This document shows positions 122 through 37,695 of a DNA stretch of 64,000 nt, one piece after another; positions within the stretch are counted from its first letter, which is position 1; each line of letters opens with the position of its first letter. Below the pieces are notes generated by a model that was not told where the DNA came from, made no database searches, and worked only from the letters and a program-made list of their open reading frames with translations. A program made the position numbers and the translations under genes. Where the stretch lies: NCBI RefSeq assembly GCF_039555335.1, contig NC_092628.1:70523706-70587705 (forward strand). Direction: 5' to 3'. This stretch comes from Amphiura filiformis (lineage: Eukaryota > Echinodermata > Ophiuroidea > Amphilepidida > Amphiuridae).

Positions 122-3100
122 TGAAGTAACAAACAAAACAGGTCCAATAAACGCCCAAATAACGCCTTTTTCTGGTGAAATCCAGCAGCTGGAAAACAAA
201 TCATGTGTAAATATCGATACAACCTATCAAATTGATTACAATCTACAGCCTGTACATAATAGATACGTTGGCAAGTTTCAGTAATAAGAATCTTGTGCGG
301 TTTGCGATATCTTCAAAACCGCACAGACAATTTTTGTATGGTCCTGCTAATGAAAAGCAGGGATTTTCAATTATAAACAGAGAGGGGCTTTTAATTGGCA
401 AGGTTCTGCAATAAGAATAAAGAGGGCGTTGATGCTGCCAACTAAAAAAAGGGATTTTCAAGTAAAATGCCCTTTCTAGTCTATTATGTCAAACCTTACA
501 ATAACGCACATCCCTCCTTTGCAATAGCAGCACCACAAAGCAGGGATTTTCAATTACAAATAGAGAGGGCCTTTTAATTGGAAAGTTTAGGTCATAAGAA
601 AAGAGAGGGCGTTTTGTCTGCACTGGGCCCCAGACAAACGAGAACCTAGACCAATGACTTTGACTCGCGTAGTGAAGCCGACACTGCTTAGCAACGAATT
701 TGACAAGGACGCATACCCGGACGCAAACAAGTAGACATGTTCGCGTCTATGGAACATGTTGCATTTGACGCGGCGATAACGGCGCAGTAATCACGCAAAC
801 GAGCGCGTCAAACATATATGCGATATTTCTTCGCGCCTAGTAACCCCGTCAATCCGTCAATATCACCTTGGATACGGGGCTTCACCTCCCGCTGTGGTAA
901 AGGATGGGCAGTAATAGGTCTAGGTGGTATGTCTATGTACTGGCGCCGCCATCTTGTGCGGTTTGCGATTTCTTCAAAACCGCACAGACAATAAGGCGCT
1001 TCCCAGCAAACACAAAAACGTTTTAAAAACGTTTTAAGTAAGTTGTATTTTGGTTTAGGTAAAAACGTTTTAATAACTTTAAAATGCCGGGTTATATAAA
1101 GTCATGAAAACGTTTTTAAAACGTTATTGCAAATATTTTGGGCAAACATTTTTCGCAAAATATTTTTTCAACCCCATAATAACATTATGTTTAGAATGTT
1201 TTGTATCAGGTGTTCAAGAATGTTTTTGGAATGTTATTAAAACGTTTTTATACCCTTTATATAACCCGACATTTAAACGTTTTCTGTAAAACATTTTTGT
1301 TTGCTGAGCAGTAGATTATCAAAAATGTTTTTAAGGTTATGAAAACGTTTTATACTCTTAATATACCCTTTATATAACCCGACATTTAAACGTTTTCTAA
1401 CAACCTTTTATAACCTTTTGCGAATGATGTCGAAAACGTTTTGTGTTTGCTGGGTTCCAATGAAAAGCAAGGATTGTCAGTTATAAATAGCCTGAAAGGG
1501 CCTTTAAATTGGCAAGTTTCGGTATTAAGAAAAGAGAAGGCGTTTTGTTTGCACTGGGCACCGCCATCTGGTGTGGTTTACGATTTCTTCAAAACAGCAC
1601 AGACGATTACTTTAGGGCCAATGAAAAGCAGAAATTTCCAATCATAGAGAGAGCCTTTTAATTGGCATGTTTTGATAATAAGAATAAAGAGGGCTTGCTG
1701 CTGTCAACCAAAAGAAGGGATTTCAAGTTGTGGCGCTGCTATTGCAAAGGGCGTTGGTGCTGTCAACCAAAAGAAGAGATTTTCAATAATTGTGGCGCTG
1801 TTATTGCAAAGGAGGGATCTACGTTGTAAAGTATGACATAATAGACTAGAGAGGAAAAGAAGGGAATTTCAATTTGTGGCGCTACTACTGCAAAGGAGGG
1901 ATCTACGTTATTGTAAAATTTGACATAATAGACTAGAGAGGGCGTTTTCTTTGTACTGGGCGTCACCATCTTGTACGATTACATGGACGGGGGCTGTGAA
2001 CTCTCAAGACCTTAATATGATTCTGCACTACCAACGTCCAAATTGGGTAGAGGATCAACTAGTCAACATTTAGCTGCCACCCGCTGATAACGGAGAAGGG
2101 TTTCTCCGAAATATACGGAACAATAAAGTGGCTGCTGAAGACTTGTTTATTTCCAATTTTCAAAACCAGCAAATGAACATTGTTATAATTTTATACGCAC
2201 TAAAATATCAAGATCAATTCTATATCGCTTTATATTATTGCATTTATATAATCAAACATCTTTGCCTTTACCTTGTTTCATTATACTGGTCAAAACGAAT
2301 TCCAGCTGTAATAGCCACTATGACAATAGGTACACCTGGGGGTATGGAACAGAGCAGTATTAAATTATTTCGTTACACTTTTTAAACCATTAGCACCCCA
2401 TCACACGGTTGTTTGATGCGATAATTTATCAAATTTTCTAACAAAACATTATAATAATGTTCAATTCTAAACCGGGACAGTACCAACAACTACCATACTT
2501 ATATGTACATATATTTCCAGCTCTTTTTAACATAGATTGTCGTTTCTTTTCCAACTTATTCATCTAAAATGTATATTTGTGTGCACATTGAGGGCGCTAT
2601 TTACATATATTTTAAATTTAATTTAGCCAAATAATATAAGTTATTCCTAACCTTTCATGATAAAAAGTTTTTCGAAAATTTCGTTGTTACTTGTTACTCT
2701 TTTTCTGATGTTTTAATGCCTTTATACCAGTATCTACCCCTTGTAAAGATGAAAACACGATTTAACATGTTTAAGATAGTGCCATCAGTGTTCACCTTTT
2801 CTTAAAAATAACGTAGTTTTACATGCTATCAAACAACCGTGATCACTCATACAAATAACAAATTGATAATTTCTTACTTGGATTCAATTATTCATTTGAC
2901 ACAGAAATCTTACATACCCCATGCAAAGGCAAAGAAAGGGATAAATTTTGGTGTCTTTACGCTCGCTGTTGTTTTTCTGTAGAGTAGATAGCCTTCAACT
3001 AACATCCACATGAAAGCTACCAGGAACAAGTAATGCAAGATCACGGCAAAGGCCTGGCAGAGACTCTGTCAACAGAAAGGTATAAGACATAAGTGCCGGT

Positions 3101-5300: not shown

Positions 5301-8300
5301 CTGTAGAGACAAGGCAATTTTTGTATGATTTGACATTATTAATATTATAAACTGTGGAATATATGTGATTGCACAGCGAGACTCCCGGGGAAGAGACTTT
5401 ACTTTTCTACAAAAAGCTGAAAATCACTACCAATACGAATGTTTTGATGCCGTGAATGCAGTATACCTCAAAGATGCACTAGTGCACATATTTAGCTACT
5501 ACGCGTGATTAGACGTTTTTTTGTAATTGTTCTTGTCAGATCTCTTTGTATTCAAAAAAGTAATTATACACTCCAGCTAGTTGAATTTTTTTTTTCGAGA
5601 TTTGGACCTATACGACAGAACGGATATTGACAACGCGTAATGCTGTATGTTACCATGTTCAAGACAATGTACGCCTGTGCCATATTGGACATTTTGCTAT
5701 TTATTTATCACATAAAAAAGACGGATTACGATACCATTGGTATCTCCTGAAGTTGCATAAGGATGGCAAAGTTTGTAGTATGATCACAATAACATGAACA
5801 TGATGAAGTCACTTGATCGGCTGCTTCGACTACCAGTACATGGCATCCTTCCTCACTCCAAACACTACGAAAAAAGTACAGATTTCTCACGTTTATCGAA
5901 ATTGTTAGATACCGCTTTACTAGTTTATACATTGTTTCATGTTATAAAGTTATAAAGTTATTTATACTAAGGTCTTGCATACAAATGTCTACAAAGTAAT
6001 TCTGAAGATATTTCAGAAATCCACTTTTTTGAAATACATTAGATCAAAGAGCAGCCAACTTCTCTCATTTCACAATCGTATATAATCATATCAGTTAATT
6101 ACCTTTTATTTAGCAAACAAACCATTTCTCCGCATCTTTACGAATGATCAGGGCGCACATAAAAATAAAATAATGTGGAAATAGGAGTATAAACTGACCA
6201 GTAGATACCAGTTGTAGTCCTACTAATTCATGGCATATTGGATAGCCTAGGTGAAAGTTAGCCCATATTTGCAAGACTATCCTTGCCTTCAAGGTGAAAC
6301 AAACCTACTCATGTTACCCTCTGGCCATGGTCTGACCTGCTGTCAGATCTTTCCCAAGGAAAGATGGCATTCCAATATTCCCCTTTAAAGCTGACCGAGG
6401 TGCAAATTGCGCCGGAAAAAAAAGATTTAAAAAAAGTTTTAACACCATAAATATTCCCTCACGAGTACTTGGTTTAAGGTGGCGCCTCGGTCGCGCCGGA
6501 TCTGGTGACAAATTTCCCTTATTATATTGACCATAGATTGACACATAAAGCATCTACACTCTGTTTACCTTTCATGTGCATTCCAAAACCCACATTGGAC
6601 CTGAGCTTGTTCATTATCACCAACTATGCCAACCTGTAAAAATTAATTCAAATATATATTTTGTCAAGAATGTGTCATTTTTATTCACGTGCGGATATTA
6701 TACACATACACACCTGACTGTAGAAATGTACGCACATAACCCCACCCATCTCCCCTCCCACCTTATACAAAGACTTGGAGATGACCCTCGCTGACACCTT
6801 CCCACCACATCCTAGTAGCTGATGGTCGGGCTGAATGGCTGATGATGGTACACTTGCATTTTTGAAAACACATTTCTATTTTGTTTATTTATACGGAGAC
6901 ATAGATCGGATCCATCGTAATTCGGACTAACGTAGATGACAACCATAGTCAGCATTTAAGAAGTACTGATTGCATTCATGCATGAAGCCGTGACCATTAA
7001 AACTAGAGAGCTTCTATTACTGAATTTGCCTGACTTACTTCTAACTCCAGAAAAATGGAGGACTAATTTTCTTGATTAAAAGATCAAAATAGAGAATGAA
7101 TACATTTGCTTTAGTGTCAAATTGAAATTCTGACTACTAATAGGAGTGCTGAATGCTGATCAATATTGCCAATTAAGTTTGGTGTCGAATATTTCTAAAT
7201 GTGTGTGTGTTTCAAGAGTATTTTACCCAGAATGTACTACATATACATCAATTTACCATGAAGTAGTCATATCTTTCAGCCTAACCGCGTTTAATATACA
7301 CCAACAAACTCGTGTAAAGGTTTCTTGAGGAATAGGATATGAACCCGGGACTTTTACTCTAAGACTATATTACAGACCATCGCTCTTACCAACTGAGCTA
7401 TTGAGGAAACCAGTGGCATACAATAAGCCCATTATTTCATATATTTACCCCCAGCTTCTTTAGCGACCTCACTAAGGCAATGGAACCAAATTTGCTCGAT
7501 ATTTTGATCGACTGACGATGCATGGTTGATTCCTAATTGTAGCAAATATCAATTGAATATAATGTATTGTATTGACCAATAATATGTTACTATTATTTTT
7601 AAGTCAATAGCTCATTAATAACAAGTATAGAATTGCGTCGATGGTCGATCCAAAATCGAACACATTTGCGGTGCATAAGGAGAAATAATATTTTACTTAT
7701 TTCTAACAGTTAATTTGATAACTCAGTTCTTCAGGTAAATTATATCACTGGATATGGTCCAAATTATTATTTCCATTTTGTTGTGATTCATTGTTATTTT
7801 TACCTTCTCAAGTGTACCCTTTACAGGTCAATTGAAATCCATTTGTAAGCTTTTATATATGTATTTCAGGTTCAGAAAACAATTCAGGTAGCAGTGTAAG
7901 TAACTTGCCTTCTAAAAAACTTATGTTGGCATTCATTATTCCATGCCATACTTACGGTATTATAATCCATCTTGAATTCGACCTTAGCCGACTCTTTGTT
8001 GCCATTAACAACGGCTGAAAGCGAGAGAATTCCACTGGCAAGCTGACTACGACTGCTTCATTAAGAGATCGATAAGAATAAAAAACACAAGGATTAATAA
8101 AGTGAAAATTGCCCTGATTAATGTTTTATTGGATATATTTCGTCAATAATTAATGAATATATTTTTAATGGATTGATGTAAAAACCAACACTCAAGCTTG
8201 CGTGGCATTCAGAATTACTCATGGATCAAATTGTATTCACAATATTTAAAATTGTAATATATTACCCATATCTAAGAAATAAGTTGAAAAGAGCTCGGCT

Positions 8301-11300: not shown

Positions 11301-14300
11301 CATTTCGTTTGATCTCCTTTTATTTCTCCTGTCCACCTGTCCTTATCCTTGTGTATTTTTTTTATGTTATGGGCATCCCTTTAATTGTTTTCACTATCAT
11401 GACTATTGCGTTTGTCCAGGCTTTGTAGCCTATCGTTATAAATAAATGAATAAATATACATTCAAAACTATACGATATTATTTTCTCGTGTAATTATTTA
11501 GATGGTTGGGTATTAGTTTTTGTTGGTAGCAAGCTGAGCAAAAAATCAACAAAAAAATCAACAAAGTATTATAATGATACTAAACTTACCCCTTTACTTT
11601 GACTGTCTCCAAGGCCCGTATTCTTGAATAAGATTACCGAGAAAAAAAATCGAGTTATGTAAATTGATGAATTTACAAATTATTTATCATATTCAGTAAT
11701 ATTCACATATATTTCCATACAAGACATTTACAAAGAACCGCTAAAGTCAAAGCGAGCATTTTTCAAATGCAAAAAATAAACAAACATTATGGAGCTCGTG
11801 AATTTCTAAAAAAATGAAACTTGCATAATTAAAATGATCAAGAAGTCAAAACCTAAAGCCGAGACAAAAGACGATGTTCGGGGAAATAAGTTTTAATCGC
11901 ATTTAGAGATGTGTTTTCTTTGATAAAGGTCCACCACCTCGACCATATGACATCTTTTCCCACTCATCCATCTGGAAATGTGGGAGGGGACCGGACACTT
12001 TGGTCTGATTTGTCAAAATATTGCTGAAAGAACAAATAATGGGTAATTTTGCCAAAAAGCGCGGAGACACATTCTAGTGCTGCATGTAGGATTGCCGCCC
12101 ATCTACTATTAATTAAGAATATGCCATACATGTTTAGCTTCCCCACATTGTGTGACTTTCCTATCATAAAATACCATACGTAAGTGCCTGAGATGTCAAT
12201 TCAAATTAATATAGGGCCTATGTGTGAAGGCTGCCCCTTGATATATATCAGGCCTCATAAATTATAGACAAGTCATGTTAACGCTACTATAAGTGCCCGA
12301 AAAGAAATAATCTAGCTTACCGTTATCTGGTCCCGTATCTTTTTGCTGCATCCATTTGGTGATGAACAAGCTTTGGACGAACCTGGGTTGCTTGCGACTG
12401 TGGTCGGTTTGGTAGAGGCTTGCTTGTTAGTTGCTGTAGTAGCTGCTGTTGTTTCGACAGTAGTATGTGAACCCACCACAGTGGTCGGGTTGACAGATGT
12501 TTGCTTTGCAGATGTCGTGCCATCAGTTGTTGTTTCGGCAGTAGTGTGTGACCCCACCACAGTGGTTGGGTTGACAGAAGTTGGGTTTGCAGATGTCGTG
12601 GCATCAGTTGCTGTTCCGGCAGTAGTATGTGAACCCAACACAGTGGTCGGGTTGACAGAAGTTGGCTTTGCAGGTGTCGTGGCATCAGTTGTTGTTGCTT
12701 GGTCGGGTGAAATTGTGGTCACTGCTCCTAAATTTATGATATGACAAATTTTGAAAGCAATCAAAAGAATAAGGGATGAACATTCGCACGATTGATGATG
12801 TTCCTGGCTCCTGGATTTGTAGATATTTTCCATTGTTATTCTTGTTAGAAGCCAGCATTTGAGTTAATTAATATTAAAGCATTATGAGTGAATGTTCTTA
12901 GTAGCTCTTAGTGATCCAGTATATAAATTTAAAATGGAAATAAGTCTAATACTGGAACTCGGTTTTTGCAACTTTGCTACGTTGCGTCTGGCCAGGGGCG
13001 TAGCAAGCGGGTGGACAGTCCATTGGCCTCAAGGGTTCAGGGGTTAACATTAGACAATTATTATAATGTGTTTACACGCTTGTGCATGATGAAGAACAAT
13101 GTACAAACTGGCTATTTACGTTACACGTATAATAATATATACAGAGATGCCACTCAGTTTCACTCAAAAAACCTGAAACTTATTTCATAAATTGGTTCTA
13201 TTTTGGAAACATTGCGTTCCTAGCGGCAAGTTTGCGTAAAAGTTGGCAACTATCTTATTTTTGTTAATTTGGGTATGCTCAACTCGAATCTGTGACCCTC
13301 AAAAAGACCCCAAATGACCCCATAGGATCGTATAGAGGGCAAAAATTTATTTCATTTCAATAACATATTCAAATATGTCAAATTATGCGTCTGGCCCCAC
13401 GGATCCCTGAAATGTAATGTTTGTGCGTGTACGACCTATCGTTAAAACTTTATGGGGCACAAAAGGTCACAGGTCGATTTGATTTTTGTCTACAGTAGAA
13501 TTCACCACGACCTTTGCAGGACTTAAACCCCATTAAAAGCTATTAACCAAGATAACACTCATTGAAAACAGCTCAACTATGTTAAATCAGACATTCTCTG
13601 GTTAAATCCACACTCACATGTTTCTGTTTTTAAACAGAAACATGTGCGATATTGCAATAAGCTGGTATTATAGTTTCAGTTTGGTAAACGATTATAAATC
13701 AAACGCAAGGTAACAATACTGTGTGGGTCTTTGTTTTCGAAATGAGACAATAGTCTGCATATTGTTAACCAGCATTCTTGAAAATGAGAAACATAATGGT
13801 TGTAGACTTAACACGGTTTGGATATAATTTCATTTTTTTTTATGTTATCTGTCGTTTACATATCCTTCCTAAAACACCAAAGTGCGAATATTTCCAAACA
13901 CCTAAATTAGCTAAATATTTAGGACATGTTACAAAACTATATTTTCTAGAATTCCAGAGAGTACTTGAAATATTGGCCGGTTATTTTTCACACAGTGACG
14001 TTAACTAGGCAATGCCCTTCACCTATAACATACACTAAAACACCAAAGTGCGAATATTACGTGCAACTATATTTTCTAGAATTCCAGAGAGTACTTTAAA
14101 TATTGGCCGGTTATTTTGCACACAGTGACGTTAACTAGGCAATGCCCATATAATATAACATACACTGTTTGTAGAGGTCACGCGTCAATGGTGTATTGAC
14201 TGTGTATTATGTATAGGAAAATGAACAATAACTGCAGTATGATCACTTCCAATGTCAACTCAACTGCATACTCTTACATCTTTGACAGAGTTGCTCTATT

Positions 14301-17300
14301 TTTAATTCACTGGGGTGTGATCAATCTGATTGGCTGTTCTTCCACCCCCGCTCCTATGACGTTACACCACTAGTTGGCCCCTGTAGTGTAACCTAATGTG
14401 ACCAAATATAATTGTCATCCCTTCTTCGAAATTATTCTTTCTTTCGTATTTTGGTTTCTTTGTTTCTTCCCCCATGCTTGCCTGAATCTCCATACTTTCT
14501 TACTTTTAATTCATATCCAAGTTCAAACCAGGTTAAAAAACAAACAAATACAATATTATTACTTACTAATATCACACCCCATGGTTGAAAACTTCCAAGT
14601 TGCGCCTAAGTGGTGTGTTGGTTTTAAACCTATACTATCGATGTCATCAACTGTAAGATCTCCTGTAGCCGTATCGGTCAAAGTAACCAATGGCGTATCC
14701 ACACCCTTTTTCCCCAAAGAAATCGTGTCGGTGGTATCATCAATGGAGAGCCAAAATGAAGTATGTATCACATTACAGGCATTGTCGGTGACGACCGAGG
14801 TTGGTGATCCGGCTGGAGATGTGATTTCACAGGTGTTTGCAGTTTTTCCGATTGCTATAGAATGCAAAAGTGGTGGAAATGCAAACATAACTAATATATA
14901 AATGTAAATGAACCTGGACGTGACCAGTGTTGAAGGACAAATAACAATAAAAACCTTATAGGGCTCAAGCACTCCCCAGTGCAGTGTAAACATATTAACA
15001 CGGAACGACCAGCTGAAGATCATGGCAACGTTTGTTCGTTTGTTTTTGTCGAGCGAGTTAAATGCTGGCTTCAAGTGCAAGTTGTGTATCATCATAAACA
15101 TCCCCCGATCTCCTAATCAGAGTCTAAACGTCTTCATCATCATCATCAGTCGGCTGCGGAGCAGACAACAAGCTTTCTCCAACTATTGCGATCTTGGGCA
15201 AGCGAACAACTTTTGTTTGGCTGTTTGGCACAGCATCCCTTCAGTATCTCCCAGGAGTTGCTGGATACTGTAAGTACAGTGTGTGCGTAGCCGCCCCGGT
15301 TTCCTCTTCCCATGTGGTGGAATATAAAGGGCATATTCTTTCACATGCTCGTCGTCTTCAAGACGCAGTATATGACCGAGAAATTTGAGTTGATGAATCT
15401 TGACTCTGACAACCAGTGGAGTGGTGTTGGTCAGATTGTAGATGGCTTCATTTGTAATCCGATCCACACGCTTGATGTTTAACATGACTCTGTAGCAAGA
15501 TGTTGCAAGGCATTGATCTTGTTTTCCATGTCCTTGATGATTACCCATGACTCACACCCGTACAGAAAGACGTAACACAAGTTGTCTCAAACAGCTTGAT
15601 TTTTGTTTCGATTGGCAGCGATGGGCTTCTCCAGAGGCGTTAAAGTTTCCAGAAAGCAGCCCAGGCTAGTGCTTTTCTTCTTTTTTGGTCTCCAGCACTA
15701 GAGCCCATCTTGACACCCAAGTACTTGAAGTCTGTGACATGGTTGAGCGTTACAGTTTGCAGTCATATATTCTGTCTTAGGTGCGCTGATGACAAGGCCT
15801 AGATCTGCTGCTGCAGTTGCAGTCCTAGTAAGCTGCGACTGGGCACGGGCTATGGAATATTCCAAGAGGGCAATATCATCAGCAAATTCCAGGTCATTTA
15901 GTATCCTAGCAGGATACCTGCTTGGCCGACTTGGGTGGGTAACTATTCCAGCGTCAATTCCAGAAGTATTTTTATTCAGAAGGTAGGAACAGGAATGGTG
16001 CCAACACCTTACCAGAATAATAAGCAAATGCTCAAATCAAGTGAAGCACGTTTGAATGTTATTTTATAAAAATAAAAACTGTATTCGAAATTACTACAAA
16101 GGTAAGGCCGTTAATCAATAGTGGTAGTATACTCACATATTTGGTACATTCCTTCAATTCTTGTTTGTGTATCATCATTAAGAGCAATGTAGACTCCTTT
16201 ATTATTCGGTGTCTTGACAGAAAATTCCACCACAGTCGGCGTGTCTAATTCTTGCAGACGCCAATCGAATGCGCTTGTGACAGTAGTTTCGATTTCTTGA
16301 CATCCTACAAATAAGGTGAATTGCTACAATCAGGAAACATATGTTCATGTTCTTGTATATTTGTGTTTGTTGCGTAAATAGACCTACCATCAGTGCTAAC
16401 AAGTTATCATAAAATTGATATTTTCGTATTAATATGCCTGATGGTCCTAACGTAAGCCAAACACTCATTCAATTAGATTAGAGACATGTCTTTTTTATAT
16501 AATCTACGTAGCGTAGATGTCTTCAATTTTAATTTCAGATTTGGTTTTCCACCTGTCCAAATACATTTCGGCAATATGCTCCTTCGAAACCAAAATAATG
16601 TAAATTAGAAGAATTTTTTTTTAAATAATGTAAATTTTTAATCCCAGAAAGCTGTCAAATTTAAGACGGTCGGAAAATAGATATTATGTCCTATTAAGGT
16701 GGTACTACACCCCTTGATAAATTTGTGACTATTTTTGCATTTTTCTCAAAAAATAATAACACATTGGTAACAAACGTTATCTATATTATAGGGGCAAGAA
16801 ATCCAGTTACTACACTGGAATTTCAATGACTCAAGACAAGCGGTACGTTATTTGTGATATTAAAAGAAAAGAGGTACAGCTAGAATGTACCTCATTTCAT
16901 AACATACGTATAATGAACCACTTGTCTTGAATCACTGAAATGTCAGTTACGTAATTGGATTCCTTGCTCCTATGTTACCAGCGTGTAGTTATTTTGGAGA
17001 AAAATGCAAAAAAGCCACCTTTAAGACAACCTAAATATTACATATTTAAACTGCCGTCTTACCAGTGGCGTAACTTTGGGACAGGGTGCCCGGGGGCGAA
17101 AGTAGTTCGGGTGCCCCTAACCAAGGGTGTGCATGGTGCAGAGCTAATCAATTTTGGTATTGAAAGGCATACATGTATAGACCTACCGAATAACTTACAA
17201 ATATAGTGTTTCAGATTAAATTTATTTCATGTTTCAATACAAGCTAATGCAGTGCATGTTAATAAAACAAAATGTTTTCATATTCTCCAATGTCTTTACT

Positions 17301-25472: not shown

Positions 25473-25512
25473 CAGCCCCCCCCTACCAAAATATTAATGA
25501 ACACTCCCTAAC
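25473..25512. repeat. Solo end of the 42.5-43.6 kb element
   Basis: 'accagccccccccctaccaa' followed by 'aatattaatgaacactccct' matches the right end of 42487-43602. Confidence 0.75.
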
Positions 25513-25606
25513 TATTGTTGACGGGCCGGCCACATTTCTATGAAGCCTTCAAATGTAAGTTGTGAGTTTGACACCAATCGTCTTCAAAACACACAACTGC
25601 ATTTCG

Positions 25607-25612
25607 TTTATT
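25607..25612 (-). promoter_or_regulatory. Candidate polyadenylation signal of gene 2
   Basis: The plus strand reads tttatt, so the minus strand reads AATAAA, about 140 nt downstream of the gene 2 stop codon. Position and spacing fit a poly(A) signal, but such hexamers are common in AT-rich DNA. Confidence 0.45.
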
Positions 25613-25752
25613 CCTGAAATCTGCGCATGACTGAAAAATACTTTGAACTGCATTTGAATTACATTAGTGTCGATTCTGGTCATCAGACCACTGACTGGTG
25701 TTTTGTTAGCATTTAAACATAAATACCGAAGACCAATCAGTATCAACAAGGT

Positions 25753-28700
25753 TCATGTTCCTTCCATTCTAGTGACCAAAGTACCACTAGCCGATGCAGT
25801 GGATCCTCCGCTATCCGCTGCTCCTATCTTTCCTCGTTTTTTGGCAAAAGCTCTGCGAACCTACAAAAATGATCAGATTGGTTGTTTAATTGATTTCGTT
25901 CGTTATATTCTCCCGGTTCATAATATTCATTTATTCATTTATTCATTTATTCATTTATTCATTTATTCATTATTCATTCATTCATTCATTCATTCATTCA
26001 TTCATTCATTCATTAGTTCGTTCATTCATTCATTCATTAATCATGCGATCGTTCGTGTATTTTTTCATTCGTTCATCCATTTTTTCATTACACAGTTCGT
26101 TCATCTATTTTTTTTGGTTAATTCAACCGTCAAGAAAGTTTCCTTTTACTCCTTACTCTTTATACATTCAGTTATTTACCTCTGTGTTCTTGACACAATA
26201 GCAGACAAATATCATGATACCCTGAAAGACAAAGAAATACCATAAACTGGTAAAAAGTCAATCAAATAATAGAATTTCATATTTGGATGGAAATGGTATT
26301 CAATAATGCTCAAAGCTGTAAAAAGTAATTAAGCTACAAGTCTATGTACCATTATAAAACATTTATTTACCTGTGTTGACAAGGAAATGACAAAAAGATA
26401 CTCAAAAGTGACATGGAAACTGCTGAATAACCCAAAGATCCACGTCAACCCTAAAATAGGCGTCATCATAACAACGGCACGCAATGCCGTCCTGGTGGAA
26501 GAGATAAAATAATAATGAAAGTGTTAAATACATATAACATACACCTTAGCATCCCTTTTGGAACTCCTTGACAAATATTTTAGTATTTCTTTTTTATTAA
26601 ATATCAAATTTAGTTTGCACCTTGGCGAGCATAATTATGTCAAGAAATTCAAATACAGGGTGTCCCAAAAGTCTCAATACAGTTTTTAAACGTTCAAACT
26701 CTAGTATACAACAAGCGACAACAAAGATGAAGGCATTGTTTCACAGAGAAAACTCGTGCAATTATTTTGATACCAAATATGACATAAACCCACTAACATC
26801 CCAGCAAACACAAAACGTTTTCGACATCATTCGCAAAAGGTTATAAAAGGTTGTCAGAAAACGTTTAAATGTCGGGTTATATAAAGGGTACATTAATAGT
26901 ATAAAACGTTTTCATAACATTAAATAACATTTGATGGTAATTTACTGCACAGCAAACACAAATGTTTTACAGAAAACATTTAAATGTCGGGTTATATAAA
27001 GGGTATAAAAACGTTTTAATAACATTCCAAAAACATTTTTGAAAACTTGGTACAAATCATTCTAAACAGAATGTCATTTTTGGGTTGAAAAAATATTTTG
27101 CAAAAAATGTTTGCCCAAAATATTTACAATAACGTTTTTAAAATGTTTTCACGACCTTTATATAACCCGACATTTAAATGTTATTAAAACGTTTTGTAAA
27201 AAACATTTTAAGAACATTTCTGTGATTGCTGGGTGCAAATATTTTAACATAATGTTATTTAAGTGTTGACAAAATATTTGGCCAAAAATGTTTGCAAAAA
27301 TAGTTTACAATGACATTTCGAAAACATTTTAAAAATATTGTTGTAGTGTGTTTTCATACAAAACGTTTTAAAACGATTACATGACCTTTATATAACCCGA
27401 AATTTTAATGTTATTAAAACGTTTTTAACCAAACCAAAACCCAAAATATAACTTATTTAAAACGTTTTAAAAACGTTTTGCTGGGATAATAAATAATATA
27501 CGATGAAACAGTTGGCCATATTACACACAAAACCATACAATAAATTTACAGCAAATATCAGGATCCCTACCTCCTCTCAACTTCTAGACCAATGTCCCCA
27601 TTCAATTCAATTGCAATATCAAACGATTATCGTATTATATTTTTGTCAACTCGGATTAATATACTCTCAACTGTCACAGTAGCTCGGAAAATAAAATTAA
27701 AAGCAGCATGCTTACCTAATTTTCTCTGCTTCCCTTTTTTCAAGATTCACTTTTAGTTTCATAAACGTTTTCATAACAATTAGTACAATGATAATGTTAA
27801 CCTGTTGTAAAAAAGCAAACGGTAAATATTAGGGTAATAAATCGGGTGTTTAAAAAAAGGAAAACTGTTTTATACTATTACTACCTAGATATGACTATTA
27901 CAGAAAGGGTAGCTTACTTTTTTAATGAAATATGATATCTGTACTTAAATTAAGGAAAAGAATTTAAAAAAAGGAAAACTGTTTTATACTATTACTACCT
28001 AGATATGACTATTACAGAAAGGGTAGCTTACTTTTTTAATGAAATATGATATCTGTACTTAAATTAAGCATTAATTGGTTTCGTTTTATCAATTCAAATT
28101 TTAACAATTGTTACATTAATGAGAATATGTGATGATCTGAAACGCGAGGGCGATGTAATATACACTAACTGAAGTTAATTTCCAAGACCTCAGAAATGCG
28201 AATGATGCCCAATTCTCTCTCTTTATTCATCTTCTCTGCTATCACTTACGAGCACAATAAGGAATGCAGGTCCTAAGAACGCCCAAATCAAACCATGTTG
28301 TGTGGAAAGCCAACAGCTAGAAAAATGTAAAGTGGAAAGGACGGTTTATTAGCTTATATTTTGCATGCAAGCCCCAAATATATACTGAGGTAAATGCTGC
28401 TCATACGCTTTACTAAGGGCTGGTATACCCCCTGGATTTCTATACCGAGATAGCTCTAATTCAATACCAAAAGAAGTACTAACATCCTCCATATGACGTC
28501 ACTATGAAATTATACTGTATGCCCACACAAAATTAGGACTATAACTACACACAAACATAAGGCACAGATAGGCAAGCAGGTAACACGGTAGGCTATTTTA
28601 TTTTCGTTAAGAGGCCGGACACAAGATTAGCACAAGTCATTTGGTGGATTATTGCTAGACTGACGCCCTCATTCGTCAGTGCTCTGGGTTGACAAGCATA

Positions 28701-30610
28701 ACACAAATTATATGCATATAAATGTGTCTTGTCTCAAGTTGAGAGTAACACCATGTTGGATTTCGCAGTGGCAGATTCGAATCAGTGCGTTTGCGCGGTT
28801 GCGTCGCCAGCGTACGGACAAATACGCGTGTGTATTATACACACACGTATAATACACGAGTATTAGTAATACTCCTGCGGCATTAAGTTAGCGCGCGCGA
28901 TTCAAATCTGCCAATGCAGAAATCCAACATGGTTGTAACTTGAGATTAGACCACTGAAGTCTATTGAACTTAATATCGATGGACGAGACAGACTTACGAT
29001 AGACGATACAGACGACGAAGGATTCAGCACCGCACACCGGGAGGAAATCTATTACAGAGGTATACACCCCTCTTATAGTGTCATAAGAATAAGATTGCTG
29101 TGACGTACCGACATGACAATTATCGAAATTAAAAGGTTATATTTGCGAGTTGCGGCAGAAAATCATGTAAACTAAATTGGGTCATTGGGTATAATCTGTA
29201 TAAAAAAGTGGGACTTCATTACCTTTGTAAATCACGTGATGCATATTGTTGAAAACGGATACCACCAGACAAAGCAACAATACCAAGTGGAAGTCCTGTA
29301 AATAAAGAGTTCCGAGTTACTCATCTGATTTGAAATGATTTTGTCTGGATTTTAATACAGATGTTCCTAATACAATCGTAAGTTCACTACCAATACCTAC
29401 CCCACGCAAATGCAAACAAAGGAGCAAATTTCTGTGTCTTATTCTGAGACACTGATGTCTTCCGATAGAGGATAACTCCTTCAACCAGCATCCACATGAA
29501 AACAACCAGGTAGAGGTAATGCAATATAAAAGCCACAGTTTTACAGGTTTGCTGAAACAAAAACCAAGAAGATTACGTTTTACGAAGGTATTTCTTTTTT
29601 AGGAGACGAAAAACCCTACTCTACGGGCCAAACTCACTAGCTTTTGCGGTTCCGAAATTATGAGTAAAAATGGCTGAAGGCCAACATTTTAACATTTGGG
29701 CTCCACATGGGTCAAAATAGTCAATTTCCTTTGCTTGTGATGAATATGGTCTCACATTTTTCGTATCGTCTGCTAATAGCAATCAAGAAAAAGAATAGTT
29801 TGCACTATATGTGACATTTGGTTGCCTAGGAAAACGCAGTAAAATAGGTCACAACCAATAGGACTGATTGGCCATTGGCCCATTTCACTGTGTTACGTAG
29901 GTAACAGAATATCTTGGGTATTGCAAACTATTCCTTATTGAAATTGTTAAAATCGGAGGAAAATGTCTGTTTTGAGCCATGTAGAACCCAAATGTTGACC
30001 TTTTACCTTTTTGCTTATAACTTCATAACAATAAGTCGTAGATAGGTCAGGTTGTATAGCCCTGTATAAACGTTGACCTTGGAATTATAGAATTCTATAA
30101 ATGGCTAACTTTAGCTAACGTAATTTTAGGTAACCCGAACTAACACGAATATGTCATAATTACTTATGCAACACTTACTCTGCCATGTGTTCCATTCCCA
30201 GCAATCAAGAATAAAAGATTTGCTGTTGCTAAAGATATGGATAAATTGGCATGGACTTTGATGGATAACGACCCAAGAAGCCTGTCCAGAAAAACAAAAG
30301 CAATACGAAAATTATGAGCAAACTTATTTATTTCCTAGATTCATATCCACGTTCTTCTCTCTCAAATCAGATTAAATGGTTTATCGCTTAAATCTCACTG
30401 ACATAAAAAAAAAAAAATAAGGGCGAATTAACCAAGCTATACTGCGAAAGTACTACCAAGTGACAATAGAATGATATGTTGAAATCTGTTGCAACATGTT
30501 GTCAATACTTACCTGAGAAATAAGTAACTTATTACCGTCAGATATAAACATACAATGGACACACCGCCAACAACTCTGCCAATCATTGATAAAATAACGT
30601 CGTGAATTGT
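25753..30610 (-). CDS. Gene 2 exons 12-20: complete 7TM domain and C-terminal tail
   Basis: TM1 30610-30513 (GGVSIVCLYLTVISYLFL); TM2 30281-30179 (HANLSISLATANLLFLIA); TM3 29551-29401 (LHYLYLVVFMWMLVEGVILY); TM4 29295-29223 (LPLGIVALSGGIRFQQYA); ECL2/TM5 28316-28250 (CWLSTQHGLIWAFLGPAF); TM5 end and ICL3 27801-27716; TM6 26491-26371 (MMTPILGLTWIFGLFSSF); TM7 26221-26180 (GIMIFVCYCVKNTE); tail 25860-25753 (VRRAFAKKRGKIGAADS, ending RMEGT). The TM7-to-tail sequence matches the usual class B2 pattern '...N-x-E-V-R-x-A-F'. The tail is short and lacks an obvious PDZ ligand. Confidence 0.93.
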
Positions 30611-33600
30611 CTGCAAAAAATGTGTTTTTGGCACTCAGGGCAATGTATCTTGAATTCTGTTTATTGTATCACTTTAAATATTTATCATTATTAATTATTA
30701 TAGACAAATACCTGGAGCTTGACGTCTATCCTCAGCATTTTATAGCATACTAGTTAATAGTGATACAAGGGTGTTGACAGGGTTTTTAAGTACAGTATTG
30801 TCATGATTGTGGTAACTTCTGATATTCATATTTCGTAAGCCGAATTAGCTGCAATCGAAAACTCATCTATAAAACCTTCTACAACTCGTATACCGTAACA
30901 TCTTGTCTACAAGCATATATAGTGTTTTTGATGAAAGCTTAATTAATACGAAACAAGCGTAAATATACTAATACAATAGATTGGTCTTACAATAATACTT
31001 GTTTGTATATATGACCGGATCTGTAATTTATTTGCTCAAACTCCATAATGACGCCTGGAATAATTTAGCTTTCATCAGAAGCACTCTATATGCTTGTAGA
31101 CGAGGTTTTACGGTATTGGTATCAAAACATAAATGCAAATTTATCATGATTGGCTTCTATTTTATCAATGGGAATTTGGTAACAAAAATATATAGGCATA
31201 CCAACGGTTTTTCCACAATCTGTGTTAATATGGCAAAGTTGGTAGTGTGGTCACATAAACATTGTACCATTCCTCCTGATGTGCTGAGGAGCTCACAACC
31301 AGTATCACTCCATGAACTAACAAAAGGCAAAATAATTATTGGGATTTATTGTTAACTTAAACACACATTTTTATTACAAAACATAAACCCAGTTATGTGT
31401 GAGTTCAGGTTTGTTGGTTTATGCCTAAGCATTGCACACTATAAATCCCCGTTTTCAGTTTGCAGTGAAAATCTTATTTATTGCACTTTCTTATATTGTT
31501 AGATGACCAAAAGGATTATTATCCTACACTTTGTAAACATCAAGTCGTTAACAATAAAACATATATCTATGGCTAGTAATTATTAATTATCTCAACTACA
31601 TATAGTTCACTCAAAGTCTTGCTAATAAAATATTAATGCAAGTACTTTCACCCTAATGGAATTCTGCAATTAACGCGTTACTAACAAACCAAGTGTGTCG
31701 AACAGCCTCATTATGCACTGAAATAATTAAGTGAAAAGAGTTAAAAGCAATATTATTGTTTGTGAATGCAAAACACACCCCTATATCTATATGTTAGTTT
31801 CGACCTGTTAAATAGCTTTAGATTGTCGACTCCAATATACTCATCTCATAATATAATGATTTTCATATTTCTATATTTCTAGACGCATATTTTGCTGCAT
31901 AATACGCAGGACAATAGTTTGCATCCTTTAATATCAGTACAAATGATACTCACTTTTCGATTGGAATCCAGAAAGCACAATAAATTTGTGTATCCAACTG
32001 GCTGTTCATCTCCTAATATGGAATTAATTGAATTACATCATTGATTATTATGATATTCAAACAATAATTTTATTTATGTGATTCTACTGTTTGCAATTTG
32101 TACTTAAACCTGAAACAAGTACATGAAGACAAAAATACGGCCAACATCATTATAGGAACTTGTGTTTTGCTCGTGATATCTAAAAGTATTTCAACGTTAC
32201 GACTACACTTTTTAGTTTTAGGTAAACAATTCAGCATCCAAAATATAAGCAAAATTACGATATCAATTTAAAGGTATCATAGCGTCCGTAAATTTTGAAC
32301 CTACCTCTTCAACATTCAAACTAAAGTCCACTCCGACAGATTTCTTTGTACCGCCAACAGTCACTGATAATGAAATGATCCCGCTAACCATTTGAGAAGC
32401 AGCAGGATCTCCAGAACTACAGGTAACAAGAACGCCAAATTATTGTTTATTCAGATACATTTAGTTGGTTTGTAACCAAAGTCTCCCTCAAAAACTATGA
32501 TAACCAATTATATACGTAATGGATGATAATATATTCTTAATATACCTGGGAACGTTTGAAGTACGAAACTCAACTGCTCCTAGTTGGCTTGGTTGGTTGT
32601 ACATTGCCACTATTCCAACAATTTCTTCAAAGGTAAACACAAAAACACAATACTTGTGTTACCTATTTTGAATTAGTGTTAATAAATATCGCATGGGAAA
32701 TTTAACTATTGTAATCATTTCAAAGTTTAACTTTTCTGATTATATTATACTAAAAACAATAAATAATGAATATTGAAGCTCAGAAAATAGATGATTAACA
32801 AATTGCTCTACTTGGAAAAACAGAAAACGCTTACGTCATCACCCATAATTTATTGAGATTTTTGTTTTTCTTACCGTTATTTTCAATGGTTCCTGACGCT
32901 ATACGCAAGTTATATGAGTTTGACAGATTTCCGGAACTGAATTGATATGATTCGATTCCAGCTGCCGATTCGAATTTGACCAATTCAATCACTGTATAAT
33001 GTAACAATATATGAAACGGGACAGAATAACAATATTATAACGTAAAGTAAAGTATACAAAAAGTTTATTTGGTACAAAATTTGATGATTGGCATTTGTGG
33101 AGCAACTTCAACAGTACCTTGCGTAGCAATCATAAAAGAACAGTCAGGTATTAGTTTTGATAGATTGTAATATATTCCAACTAAGGAAAACTACATCATC
33201 CTTGCAAAAAGATCCGTGAAATAGCGAATAATTTTTCGTTTTTATTCATTTAGCAAAAACAAACTATTGCCTTGCCAAAACAAAATCGCCAAAGAGAATC
33301 TAAGCATAAGTCAAATATTGCAATTGCAATCTTAACATACCAATATCTTGCCATGCTATTTGTACAGATGAGTTGATTTCCAGACCTTCCACCACTAACA
33401 GCAGTTGTTCTTGAAGTTCCTCCAACTGATTTAAGTAATCAGCAGAACTCTATAAAATAATATCAATGATTTTAGATTACTAGTTGCAGCTTCTATAAAA
33501 ATCGTAGGATTAAGAGATGTTTTTATCACCGAAAATATAAATTTGATAATAGCAAAGACCTTGTAAAATCCTAAACTTTACCAAACCAAAAGAAAGTCCC

Positions 33601-36600
33601 TAACTTTCCAAAACGAATGATATTTTGTTTGCAAAAACAGTTTGCGTGAAAGCGTGTATGGGAATGGAAAGCATATTCTATCTCGGTTCAACATTGATTA
33701 TAATGGTGATGTTTGAGTCCATCTTTATTCCATATATACATGTATTTCGACCTTTTAATCTTTTGCAAGATGATGCACTAATGGGTTTTTTTAAGAAACT
33801 GTTTCAAGAACGTCAATTTTCTTGTCGTTACTCTTTCCATGTTCCATGAAATAAATAAGTGTATTAATTTTTTATAAACACATTTTTATGAAAATAATGA
33901 AATTCATGAGCGTTTTCACTAACCATTGAGTTATTGTTGGAATTTCCTTTCGAAAATAGGTCCTGTGCAAAAACAAAAAATAATGATTACGTGAATAATA
34001 CCACCAATATTGGGTTGCAAAATATGTTAAGAACAAACAAGGGCATTGCCGGGGGCATTGTGTTGCAAACATATGGATGATAAGAGCAGTATTTTTTTAA
34101 CAACACAAAGCAATGTATGATGTATTTTAGTTTAGAATGCAATACGCTTCGGTGTCATAAACCCCGGTCATAAACACTTCAATTTTTCAACGAAAGTACA
34201 TTTTACCTCCAATTACTTTTACAATGATTACCAAAAGTGGTTGCTTCTGAAATAATAGCCTTTAGATATCAGTTATATATTATAATGTCCTTTCACCTGT
34301 AACAGTGTCGTAACAGCGTTATCTAATTCCCCAGCAGCATAGAATGCTGGCCTTGGCTTGGCGTTTCTTGACAACGTGAAATCTGCAGTTGGTGAAACAA
34401 AGGTCGAAAAGTCTCCAGACCCATAACCCGGTCCAGATCCCGATCCATCAGCAAAGTCTGTTTTGGACGTCGTGTTATCATTAGAATAGGACAAAAATTC
34501 GTCTTCAGTTGATTGGTTTGGAAAGGTATAGTTGTCATTTGTGTCAATAGCTGCGGTGTTGTTTTCGGTTGTATACGGCCAATGTGAGTGGTTGTATATT
34601 GTGGACCCAATGTGTTCATTGCTGGTCGAGAGCACCGGATCACTAGATGTTGTCTGCTTGGGATCCATAGTATTGGTAGGTTGTAGATTGTCTTTAGATG
34701 TCTGTGTCAGATCAGTATTGCGATAATAACTTGATTTTACAGTGTTGTCTGTAGTTGTGACTGACTGAGTACTATCTCCAGATGTAAGGATGGCAGATGT
34801 TGCAGATGAAGTCTTTCCAACAGTCTCTTGTACTGGTTTTGGACTTGTGACATCACCAGGTGTAGGTGTTACGTCTTCGAGTGTCTGAGTCGTGCTTTGC
34901 TCGATAGTTGCACTACTTTCAGGTGTGACAGAGAGGTCAACAGATGGATATCCCGTCGTGGTAATGGTTTTCGAATGACCTGATGTAGATAACACACGGT
35001 TTTCGGTTGTAGACACCTGAGTTGTGTAGAAGCTTGGAGTGGTTGGATTTCCAACTGTTTGACTCATAGGTTTTGGACTAGTGTTAGCTGTTTGTGATCG
35101 AAAAAATGTAAAATGTTATTAATAACTTGAGACAGACGATGAAAAAATGATACGCACGCAAAGTTATACGGATTGAGTAACACACAATAATTATATATGC
35201 ATATGCCCGTCCAATCACTTGTACCACAATAGAGTACCGAAGTGTGACGTCATTAAATCTTCTTTTTTGCATTTCAGCATTTTCATGACCATATTTCAGT
35301 AGAACATGATGAAAAACATCCACAGTCAAATTTGGTGGGAATCGGATCATGAGGGCCCGAGATATGGTCGCATGGCCAATTAGCCCCATTGAAATGGTGT
35401 AAATTGGCCTGGTTCATAACTGTTTGGGCCCTCATGATCCGATTCCCACCAAATTTTGACTGTGGATGTTTTTCATCATGCTCCACCGATACATGGTATT
35501 CAAAACGCTGAAATGCAAAAAAGGTTTTCTGTGACGTCATCACTCTATAATTCTATCGTATACATACTTTTGGACTATTTTGCCACTGGTTAACTTCTTC
35601 TAATTGAACAATCTGACTTGATACCCTATTACCCAGCATTGTGTGACGATATTCGTTTCTGGGGCACATGGTTTCATATAGTTGAAATGTATTTTACAAT
35701 GAAAAATGTACGCGGTCATATTTTGTTTTATAAAAATGGTTTAAATTTGAATTTTTGGATAATTTTAACTCGTTGGTGCTCCTAAATGAGCAGGATTAAC
35801 ACAAACAACCCAAATATGCAATGTTAGAAAACAGACGTTATCGAAAAATGATTTGCTAGTATGATTGGCGCTTTGGAACATTATATGACTTGATATGAAA
35901 TAGGAATAGTGTTTAACTTACGTTTACAAGTCCCATCGTTGAGATACCATCCATCACAACATACATAAACAGCCCTATACACTGTCCTGTACACTACACG
36001 ATGGCTTACTTGGTGAGAAATTCTGAAAAAAGAAACATCATGGAAAATTGAATTTGATGAGCAAACGAACATGCCGAGCCGCCGAGAGCGAAACATCCCC
36101 CTATCTCTAAGGAAGGTTATCTTTAAGGTTCGTTATCACTATTTACAATAGGGTGCAACTTGCTAGACTTAAGTCCAGTCCTCGTTTACAGAGTTTGGGG
36201 TTAGGGTTGGGTTAGGGCAGTCTTGAAATAAGACTAGTAGAGTTGCACCCTATTCGGTAATCGCTCCCAAAAAGGTCTTTCATTTCTAAGGATCGATATT
36301 TCTATATAATTACAAATAAGGTTCTCCACTCCTCCCGCACACCGAGCCTGTTTTACCTTCCCAGTACATACCGGTACTCATACACCTGTGTGGAGAGAGC
36401 CAAAAGAGGTCTTGTCTAAGTGCACAAGAAAATGGTACCGCCGGGGTTCGAACCCGCAATCCTCCGATTATGAGTTATGTCAGAGCCCATACCGCTGCGC
36501 CACTTTGCTCTCTAACATGTAACATATCTAAGCTGGGTATAGTAGGCAATATTATGATCAATTTAACAAATAAAATTAATAACGTTGTCTATCGTCTATT

Positions 36601-37695
36601 TGTAAGTGATATTTAACGGACATACCTGTATCTGGTACAAGTAAAGAAACCAGTGATACTCGAACATCTTGCGTAGTACTTCTGTGTATATTCACTGAGG
36701 TAGGATTGAAGAAAGCTCTGGTTCTCTGACATAGTGGTTAAGCATATGCTATAAGAGATGGTCAAAGGTATAGCAGTATAGTGTAAACGTAATCAGCTTT
36801 TTTTTTAATAAAATGGCCGATGATTTCGAATAGGTTCACTTTCATTTTATTGACGTGCTGTGATAGCTTAGAAAATTGTCTTCTGAGTATATACTTTAAG
36901 CAGGGATATCTAACCTTGTTGGAGCACAACCCATACAATTTCCTACTAATAAGACGCTGGCAAAATCTTTTGTTAAAGTAGTATTTCGTGATCCTAGCAT
37001 CTTATTTTTATGACATTTTCCAGTAGATATCCATGAAAAAAGCTTATTCCCAAAATTTCAGTTGATTCCGATTTTGCGTTCGCGAGTTATGCATGATTAT
37101 GTGTATTACACTGCTCCATAGACAATGTATTGTAATTTCATTCTGGTGTAACAAAACGTAATTCAAAATTTCACTAAATTTTTGGTTAACGATTTAATCT
37201 GCAAGAAATTTTTTGTACATAAACATGTAGTCAGAGAAGTGTCCAGTGGCTTTTTTTGAGAAAAGTGGGAGGGGTGAGGCTGTGGATCACGAAATGCCCC
37301 TTTAAAGTAAGTATATGATGAATCTACGTTTAGCTTGAGTCGTTTGGGGGTAGGCCTACACATGCGCATTTTTTAATCTAGTACTTGAAAACACATTTGT
37401 CAAGATTGTCTAATTTTACAGACAAATGAAAGTGATTGTCTTGAATATCTTGGGTTTTCGATTGAATACAAATCATTCGAAACTATCGAAATTATCGTCA
37501 GGTGTTCCAAAATGAATTTTTACAAGTACATTTCACATTGCTTTAGACACCCGTGTTTTATTCAAAATAATGATACATTAATAACCATAAGACAAAAGCG
37601 TCAATTTAATATTGTTTGATTTACCTCTGTTGTGGTCTAGACATAGGAATCAAGGTCGTAGCAATAGCAATAGCAACTAGTACGAATTTATCCAT
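25753..37695 (-). CDS. Adhesion G-protein-coupled receptor with EMI-type N-terminal domain (gene 2, complete)
   Basis: Twenty coding exons: 37695-37625, 36748-36626, 36022-35922, 35087-34297, 33962-33924, 33449-33341, 32991-32875, 32624-32546, 32416-32305, 32012-31954, 31316-31202, 30610-30513, 30281-30179, 29551-29401, 29295-29223, 28316-28250, 27801-27716, 26491-26371, 26221-26180 and 25860-25753. They sum to 2565 nt, 854 codons plus TGA, with all phases consistent. Order: signal peptide (1-23), EMI-like domain (about 24-98), Ser/Thr-rich stalk (98-362), GAIN (about 375-530), GPS (525-565), seven TMs (573-819), 35-residue tail. An AATAAA on the minus strand (25612-25607) lies about 140 nt after the stop. 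Paralogue of the receptor at 122-18027. Class B2 assignment is firm; the ligand is unknown. Confidence 0.92.
25924..26040. repeat. (ATTC)n and (TTCATTTA)n microsatellite
   Basis: Twenty-odd tandem units. It lies in the intron between the TM7 exon and the tail exon of gene 2, and it creates spurious His/Ser/Phe-rich open frames on the plus strand. Confidence 0.95.
26654..26700 (+). repeat. Mariner-type TIR relic
   Basis: tacagggtgtcccaaaagtc is the classical mariner end sequence. No matching second end or transposase was found; a MITE interrupts the region at 26800. Confidence 0.5.
26800..27485. mobile_element. MITE with CCCAGCAAACAC ends, copy 2
   Basis: cccagcaaacacaaaacgtt at the left and aaacgttttgctggg at the right. 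The interior is the reverse complement of 1002-1454 plus extra aaacgttt units. Intronic in gene 2, upstream of the TM6 exon. Confidence 0.85.
27850..28070. repeat. Near-perfect tandem duplication of about 106 bp
   Basis: 'aaaaaaaggaaaactgtttt' through 'atctgtacttaaattaag' occurs twice head to tail with no difference that I could see. Intronic in gene 2. Confidence 0.9.
28728..28948. mobile_element. Foldback MITE
   Basis: Arms 'caagttgagagtaacaccat' and 'atggttgtaacttgagatta', then 'gttggatttcgcagtggcag' and 'ctgccaatgcagaaatccaa' pair. The centre contains a tatacacacacg palindrome. Intronic in gene 2. Confidence 0.8.
29650..30095. mobile_element. Foldback element in the TM2-TM3 intron of gene 2
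   Basis: Shares 'aaagaatagtttgc', 'gcagtaaaataggt', 'ccaataggac' and 'gaccttttacctttttgctt' blocks with 3275-3945, and has self-complementary arms. No coding capacity. Confidence 0.65.
31202..32012 (-). CDS. Gene 2 exons 10-11: GPS autoproteolysis motif
   Basis: Exons 32012-31954 (TQIYCAFWIPIE) and 31316-31202 (SWSDTGCELL through VQCLCDHTTNFAIL). Four GPS cysteines and two tryptophans are in place. The cleavage triad is His557-Thr558-Thr559, so the tethered-agonist peptide after cleavage would start TNFAIL. A plus-strand open frame across the same stretch (30999-31355) is only antisense. Confidence 0.92.
32305..33962 (-). CDS. Gene 2 exons 5-9: micro-exon and GAIN domain
   Basis: Exons 33962-33924 (39 nt, phase 0, DLFSKGNSNNNSM), 33449-33341 (LNQLEELQEQLLLVVEGLEI), 32991-32875 (IELVKFESAAGIESYQF), 32624-32546 (IVGIVAMYNQPSQLGAVEF) and 32416-32305 (MVSGIISLSVTVGGTKKSVG). 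Each matches the gene 1 counterpart in phase and in residues that would form the GAIN core. The micro-exon is the least conserved part and is called because acceptor, donor and phase all fit. Confidence 0.85.
34297..35087 (-). CDS. Gene 2 exon 4: long Ser/Thr-rich stalk
   Basis: A single 791-nt exon. It is rich in Thr, Ser, Pro and Asn, with few hydrophobic residues and several N-glycosylation sequons (for example NHSH, NNTA, NYTF, NQST, NDNTT). Near the C-terminal end there is a Gly/Ser/Asp stretch (DGSGSGPGYGSGD), which resembles a glycosaminoglycan attachment region because SG dipeptides sit next to acidic residues. Unlike the gene 1 stalk it shows no obvious tandem repeat. The likely role is a glycosylated spacer between the EMI module and GAIN. 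Confidence 0.88.
35236..35555. mobile_element. Long palindromic MITE with tgacgtca ends
   Basis: Arms such as 'aaacatccacagtcaaattt' and 'aaattttgactgtggatgtt' pair, with 'cggatcatgagggccc' against 'gggccctcatgatccg'. About 320 bp in the gene 2 intron between EMI and stalk exons. The termini carry CRE-like tgacgtca. Confidence 0.85.
35922..36748 (-). CDS. Gene 2 exons 2-3: EMI-type cysteine domain
   Basis: Exons 36748-36626 and 36022-35922. They encode a Cys-starting segment (ICLTTMSEN), then YYARCSSITGFFTCTRYR, then HRVVYRTVYRAVYVCCDGWY and GTCK. The spacing and flavour (C, C after a Tyr-rich strand, C before T-R-Y/H-R, repeated Y-R-T/A-V-Y, then CC-x-G-W/F-Y and a final C) match the EMI module of MEGF10/EMILIN-type proteins, which mediates protein-protein contact outside the cell. 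The choice of acceptor (ttatag|CATATG) is the one that keeps frame and supplies the first Cys. A profile search would confirm. Confidence 0.7.
36150..36255. mobile_element. Short MITE with aatagggtgcaact ends
   Basis: acaatagggtgcaacttgct and agagttgcaccctattcgg are inverted ends about 100 bp apart. The interior has 'ggggttagggttgggttagg', telomere-like by chance or origin. Confidence 0.75.
36440..36515 (-). repeat. tRNA-like SINE fragment
   Basis: The minus strand reads agagcaaagtggcgcagcgg (box A) and later gcgggttcgaacccc (intact box B) about 30 nt on. Only the T arm pairs well. It lies in the intron between the two EMI exons of gene 2. Most likely a tRNA-related SINE or pseudogene. Confidence 0.6.
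37625..37695 (-). CDS. Gene 2 exon 1: start codon and signal peptide
   Basis: The ATG (plus CAT 37693-37695) begins MDKFVLVAIAIATTLIPMS, a short charged start with a hydrophobic core typical of signal peptides. The donor is AGAG|gtaaat. The two leftover bases join the C opening the exon at 36748, giving Ser. No convincing TATA box was found upstream, so the promoter is not called. Confidence 0.85.

Follow-up and report, generated by a model that had tools for sequence, protein, structure and literature searches.

Two neighbouring adhesion-GPCR genes of Amphiura filiformis with a common GAIN-7TM chassis and different outer heads

Two adhesion-GPCR genes are arranged head-to-tail on the minus strand of the Amphiura filiformis contig NC_092628.1, within the 64,000-nucleotide stretch of DNA that was analysed here as a whole (the window). 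These paralogues very probably go back to a stalk-GAIN-7TM unit that was duplicated in tandem long ago, with the chassis kept, FA and EMI heads on the two copies, and a likely working through the GAIN domain and a tethered agonist. The sequence comparisons given below lend good support to the tandem duplication of a single GAIN-7TM chassis. The best explanation of the data is that the chassis has been under purifying selection since the duplication and that the outer head differs, being FA (farnesoic-acid O-methyltransferase-like) in gene A and EMI in gene B.

Gene models and domains of the two receptors

The exons of both genes were read off the DNA and then spliced by hand, with exon choice constrained to GT-AG introns with consistent phases; the joins are inferred from sequence. 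Hand splicing was used because a frame-wise Pfam scan, which covered 14-29 kb in two of the three frames of the minus strand and gave no match above cut-off, had overlooked, among others, the TM6 exon sitting in one of the scanned frames. The gene B model (37695-25753, minus strand) has 19 exons and an open frame of 841 residues, from the ATG at 37695 to the stop at 25753, and encodes, in order, a signal peptide, EMI, a Ser/Thr stalk, the GAIN region, the GPS, the 7TM part and a short tail. At 25612, 141 nt past the stop, there is an AATAAA. Gene A starts 9.4 kb beyond the end of gene B. Its model (16304-122, minus strand) joins 14 open exons into 654 residues, with the order Methyltransf_FA, stalk, GAIN region, GPS and TM1-TM5, and runs past the window edge. 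Because gene A exits the window after the ECL2/TM5 exon, its TM6, TM7 and tail are outside view. The initial annotation had drawn the pair from 122 to 37695, and these end points coincide with the last base of the gene A ECL2/TM5 exon and with the gene B ATG.

Features of gene B:
37625..37695, minus strand: exon 1, ATG and signal-peptide-like start (MDKFVLVAIAIATTLI...), donor phase 2
36626..36748, minus strand: EMI exon 1, phase 2 to 2
35922..36022, minus strand: EMI exon 2, phase 2 to 1
34297..35087, minus strand: Ser/Thr-rich stalk exon, 34% S+T, 6 NxS/T sites, phase 1 to 0, 264 residues
31954..33449, minus strand: GAIN region, 5 exons (33449-33341, 32991-32875, 32624-32546, 32416-32305, micro-exon 32012-31954)
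31202..31316, minus strand: GPS exon, C-x-C-D-H-T-T-N-F-A-I-L, with predicted cleavage H-T/T and tethered agonist
25753..30610, minus strand: 7TM and tail, 9 exons, given in the next two lines
minus strand: TM1 30610-30513, TM2 30281-30179, TM3 29551-29401, TM4 29295-29223, ECL2/TM5 28316-28250
minus strand: ICL3 27801-27716, TM6 26491-26371, TM7 26221-26180, tail and stop 25860-25753

Features of gene A:
16137..16304, minus strand: FA exon 1 (FA1), phase 1 to 1 with the acceptor at 16304
14567..14854, minus strand: FA exon 2 (FA2), phase 1 to 1
12321..12727, minus strand: Ser/Thr-rich stalk exon, 41% S+T, phase 1 to 0, 135 residues
6569..10226, minus strand: GAIN region, 5 exons (10226-10112, 9864-9742, 8732-8636, 8046-7956, micro-exon 6633-6569)
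5735..5864, minus strand: GPS exon, C-Y-C-D-H-T-T-N-F-A-I-L-M, one cysteine more than gene B
122..5300, minus strand: 7TM part (TM1 5300-5203, TM2 4828-4726, TM3 3065-2918, TM4 2335-2272, ECL2/TM5 188-122)

The 5' acceptor of FA1 is uncertain, the alternative being 16323 in phase 0. Scans for the signal-peptide exon of gene A gave no convincing candidate. The best hydrophobic start next to FA1 is at 16348 on the minus strand, directly before that exon in a different frame, and is signal-peptide-like (MNICFLIVAIHLI); it may point to a missed upstream exon, reflect an allele or assembly difference, or be a coincidence. The stalk exon of gene A contains an 81-nt repeat in 3.1 copies, so the length of the stalk may vary among alleles.

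The initial annotation had proposed a Pfam check of the spliced proteins. When the spliced proteins were searched with Pfam/HMM profiles and judged against curated cut-offs, FA, EMI, GPS and 7tm_2 were all above them. The 7tm_2 match reached 143.5 bits in gene B (positions 4-250 of 250) and 105.1 bits in gene A (positions 6-168 of 250, shortened by the window edge), and the GPS match was above cut-off at 47 bits in gene B and 34.1 bits in gene A, with H-T-T in both. EMI in gene B scored 37.7 bits against a cut-off of 25 (positions 4-68 of 69); EMI exon 2 alone gave 24 bits, just below the cut-off, and EMI exon 1 alone gave no match. In the case of Methyltransf_FA (PF12248), the whole gene A protein scored 25.1 bits against a cut-off of 24.2, a margin of less than 1 bit. 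The placement of Methyltransf_FA on the first gene (A) and of an EMI-type domain on the second (B), already proposed in the initial annotation, agrees with these scores of 25.1 and 37.7 bits.

The joined FA1 and FA2 exons, searched alone, scored 29.0 bits (E 9.7e-7, cut-off 24.2, positions 13-116 of 140). Both exons are required for the match; neither FA1 nor FA2 singly gave a Pfam match at E up to 10. Control joins were run because FA1 had been chosen by motif search. FA2 was joined to other candidate exons of the same region (8 of the 37 non-FA1 rows from the motif search), and 0 of the 8 joins reached the cut-off, the best scoring 12.3 bits.

The GAIN domain gave no Pfam match in A or B at E up to 1. 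The region does align pairwise with ADGRL3, and the alignment covers most of it in both genes, running from GAIN into the 7TM part (gene A against chain 6vhh_B: residues 36-206, E 0.00026); the putative GAIN identity in A and B comes from this pairwise alignment only. In NCBIfam, FA, EMI and the gene B GAIN region had no match above cut-off, and a search of solved structures returned best E values of 0.12 for FA and 0.57 for EMI. The HRM (hormone-receptor) domain is absent from A and B by Pfam. A search for relatives in viral contigs gave 30 pattern stretches, 0 of them confirmed.

Several other sequences were observed in the window. Within gene A, a reverse-transcriptase-like LINE fragment lies at 15186-16036 (minus strand) in the FA1-FA2 intron (RVT_1 17.3 bits, cut-off 29.6), and a minisatellite with units of about 16 nt, arranged as two mutually reverse-complement blocks, occupies 10363-10913 in the stalk-GAIN1 intron. 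An inverted repeat, 92.4% identical over 396 nt and with further partial copies nearby, has one arm at 1062-1454 in the TM4-ECL2 intron of gene A and the other at 26800-27195 in the ICL3-TM6 intron of gene B; it is probably a mobile element. Between the genes are two decayed transposon copies (21503-22341 and 23908-24732), 81-97% identical in pieces and probably of Tc1/mariner type; on the minus strand, the first matches HTH_Tnp_Tc3_2 weakly (22.9 bits, below cut-off), and the second gave no match. Amidohydrolase exons lie at 62034-63567 on the plus strand (Amidohydro_3, 43.9 and 42.1 bits), with an upstream exon at 61628-62062 that matches weakly (13.2 bits). They are flanked by a 347-nt direct repeat, 99.4% identical (61141-61486 and 63654-64000), the second copy of which reaches the window end. 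An Rfam search at gathering thresholds and a tRNA scan under the bacterial code gave no match.

The common chassis

Matching exons pair up colinearly across the two receptor loci, all of them on the minus strand. The exon sizes reported in the initial annotation are exact in the spliced models (A/B: TM1 98/98, TM2 103/103, TM3 148/151 and ECL2/TM5 67/67 nt), and the equal phases that it described hold throughout, as all 11 of the chassis exons from GAIN1 to ECL2/TM5 end in the same phase in both genes. The match in fact extends further upstream than had been stated, to GAIN1 (GAIN1 115/109, GAIN2 123/117, GAIN3 97/79 and GAIN4 91/112 nt); the sizes of the other chassis exons are 65/59 nt for the micro-exon, 130/115 nt for the GPS and 64/73 nt for TM4. 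Boundaries fall in the same alignment column at 8 of the 10 internal positions, with GAIN3 and GAIN4 as the exceptions and the eleventh boundary being the alignment end. The stalk exon measures 407/791 nt and runs from phase 1 to 0 in both genes.

Three exons of gene A, GAIN3, the micro-exon and TM4, were found or checked by similarity, and they rank first of 26, 63 and 36 regional candidates, respectively. In a shuffle control with 30 copies, TM4 was clearly above the shuffled sequences (55 vs a best of 28), and GAIN3 (30 vs a best of 34) and the micro-exon (33 vs 32) were about level with them.

From GAIN1 to ECL2/TM5, the A and B chassis are identical at 164 of 355 aligned residues (46%). 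A against B scores 322 bits; the best solved receptor is ADGRL3 for A (119.1 bits) and ADGRD1 for B, the longer query (181.6 bits). Between the GPS and TM5 the two genes share 110 of 207 residues (53%), compared to 68-79 of 207-209 (33-38%) shared with ADGRD1/ADGRL3. A and B group together in 100% of 200 bootstraps of a four-sequence tree that contains only A, B, ADGRD1 and ADGRL3, so that closeness is compared solely with receptors of solved structure. The chassis divergence between A and B (dN 0.55, dS about 2.6, near saturation) indicates an old duplication with a conserved chassis.

In the adhesion GPCR family, 7TM introns may be of ancient origin, and equal intron phases alone are therefore weak evidence. 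It could be argued that A and B are distant family members that carry ancient intron phases and are adjacent by chance. The near-saturated dS would fit such an origin, as would the restriction of the comparison to solved receptors and the possible age of the 7TM introns. However, A and B score 322 bits with each other and no more than 182 with any solved receptor, and both the 53% vs 33-38% identity and the grouping of A with B in the four-sequence tree argue against chance adjacency, which we consider very unlikely.

Origin of the different heads

Outside the chassis, the A and B proteins have no detectable common sequence except in the low-complexity stalk. FA is a two-exon, symmetrical phase 1-1 module located at the phase-1 intron that precedes the stalk, and EMI, which follows a phase-2 signal exon, runs from phase 2 to 1. 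Gain of a module at this common phase-1 intron, in one direction or the other, accounts best for the head difference, and gain of the symmetrical FA module is the simplest reading. The initial annotation had suggested tandem duplication followed by exon shuffling or replacement of the sensing module. The first part stands on the colinear exons, the phases and the 322 bits; shuffling or replacement is compatible with the data, which do not single it out from reciprocal loss or a 5' gene fusion. A search of the whole window for a second FA or a second EMI gave matches at chance level only, the best stray EMI match being at 60173-60030 (E 0.041) and the best stray FA matches having an E of 0.73.

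Reciprocal loss would start from a pre-duplication receptor with the order signal peptide-EMI-FA-stalk, from which B lost FA and A lost EMI. Such an arrangement would be in frame, with EMI ending in phase 1, FA running from phase 1 to 1 and both stalks starting in phase 1, and the B leader joined to the exons of A has 0 stops over 753 codons. However, the window showed no above-chance remnant of FA by B or of EMI by A, an argument that is softened by the expectation that degraded head copies this old would not survive. If A had lost EMI, the phase-2 signal exon would also come to face the phase-1 FA exon, so a further change would be needed. We regard reciprocal loss as unlikely.

A gene fusion is judged about as unlikely. 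Here the A chassis would have taken its 5' exons (signal peptide and FA) from an upstream FA-domain gene, with replacement of the original head. The symmetrical phase 1-1 of FA at the phase-1 stalk intron would suit this origin, and no gene A counterpart of the B signal exon was found in the scans; on the other hand, the window contains no second FA above chance and no FA donor was traced.

The FA or EMI exons could also be part of a separate gene and only appear to be in frame with the receptor, since the joins are read from the DNA, the start of gene A was not found in scans, and the FA2-stalk intron is 1.8 kb long. The phases all agree, however, the strand and order are the same, and gene B has a complete ATG-to-stop frame. 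A separate gene seems highly improbable.

A and B may form one compound locus in which read-through splicing from B equips the A chassis with a head of EMI-FA or of EMI alone. The scans detected no signal-peptide exon for gene A, and the signal-EMI leader of gene B ends in phase 1, which is the phase required by the acceptors of A at FA1 (16304) and at the stalk; there are 0 stops when this leader is joined to A FA1 or to the A stalk (753 and 601 codons). Against this, the intergenic stretch contains 14 AATAAA and 13 ATTAAA, beginning 141 nt past the B stop, and we give a compound locus hardly any credence. If true, a single promoter and leader could be enough for two receptor bodies.

Proposed working and comparison with known adhesion GPCRs

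The sequence C-x-C-D-H-T-T-N-F-A-I-L is kept in both GPS exons. In the available part of one source, H-X-S/T is given as the canonical cleavage motif (PMC13062082); H-T-T fits it, and a cleavage site is predicted in A and B. By alignment, the TNFAIL of A and B matches the tethered-agonist segment of ADGRD1 and ADGRL3. In adhesion GPCRs, the tethered agonist is uncovered once the N-terminal fragment comes off at the GPS, as outlined in the portion available of a study on choanoflagellates (PMC12716839).

The working proposed here builds on domain order, splice frames, chassis homology, cleavage motif and agonist residues, which are read directly from the two genes; cleavage, partners, force dependence and G protein are inferred for the A and B receptors. 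The head would bind an extracellular or cell-surface partner, held clear of the membrane by the mucin-like stalk. Self-cleavage of the GAIN domain would occur at H-T/T, and a pull on the N-terminal fragment, or its loss, would free the tethered agonist TNFAIL, which in turn would activate the 7TM part and a G protein. The EMI head of B presumably has a matrix or cell-surface protein as its partner, and for the FA head of A we assume a ligand of some kind.

The pair places two unrelated heads next to each other on a single signalling chassis with its cleavage site and a common phase-1 junction. It represents a compact natural experiment in receptor evolution and would allow testing whether the head alone sets the ligand.

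The likeness to ADGRD1 and ADGRL3 lies in the 33-38% identity from the GPS to TM5, the GPS cysteines, H-X-T and the TNFA[IV]L agonist. The difference is in the outer part, as the adhesion GPCRs in the PDB are unmatched by FA or EMI queries at E up to 1, and Pfam calls no HRM in A or B. No report of an EMI or FA head on an adhesion GPCR was found among the literature matches listed, and such a head may well be annotated elsewhere. The words farnesoic and EMI occur 0 times in the main texts of PMC2246102, PMC12716839, PMC6408891, PMC6422961 and PMC4302439, and farnesoic and 'EMI domain' occur 0 times in the available part of a 2026 review (PMC13197933). The match for 'adhesion GPCR' with 'EMI domain' was, by its title, a human blood/skin cell transcriptome; those for 'farnesoic acid O-methyl' with 'GPCR' were, again by title, crustacean or insect endocrinology, insect or mollusc transcriptomes or genomes, and similar work.

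The following comparisons refer to the available portions of the cited sources. Adhesion GPCRs of amphioxus carry Kringle, Somatomedin B, SRCR and C-type lectin heads, for which domain shuffling has been suggested (PMC2246102); they resemble A and B in having unusual heads on a GPS-7TM chassis and differ in that the head domains are other than EMI or FA. Sponge adhesion GPCRs have SRCR repeats together with other domains (PMC4302439). Invertebrate latrophilins have mixed domains, with members often lacking some of the set (PMC6422961), and Pfam matched no member of that domain set in either protein at E up to 1. The octopus has local tandem expansions of adhesion GPCRs and is thus another case of invertebrate tandem duplication, although the extra domain named there is the leucine-rich repeat (PMC6408891). 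In choanoflagellates, duplication followed by domain shuffling around a conserved GAIN/7TM unit has been argued; that work on choanoflagellate and filasterean adhesion GPCRs is a deep cross-species comparison, in contrast to a single tandem pair (PMC12716839).

Head mixing and tandem expansion are thus already described for adhesion GPCRs, and the accepted picture of their diversification is unchanged by the A/B pair. The pair is a clear example of this known mode, and it would add EMI and FA, neither pairing being among the literature matches listed, to the known heads of adhesion GPCRs.
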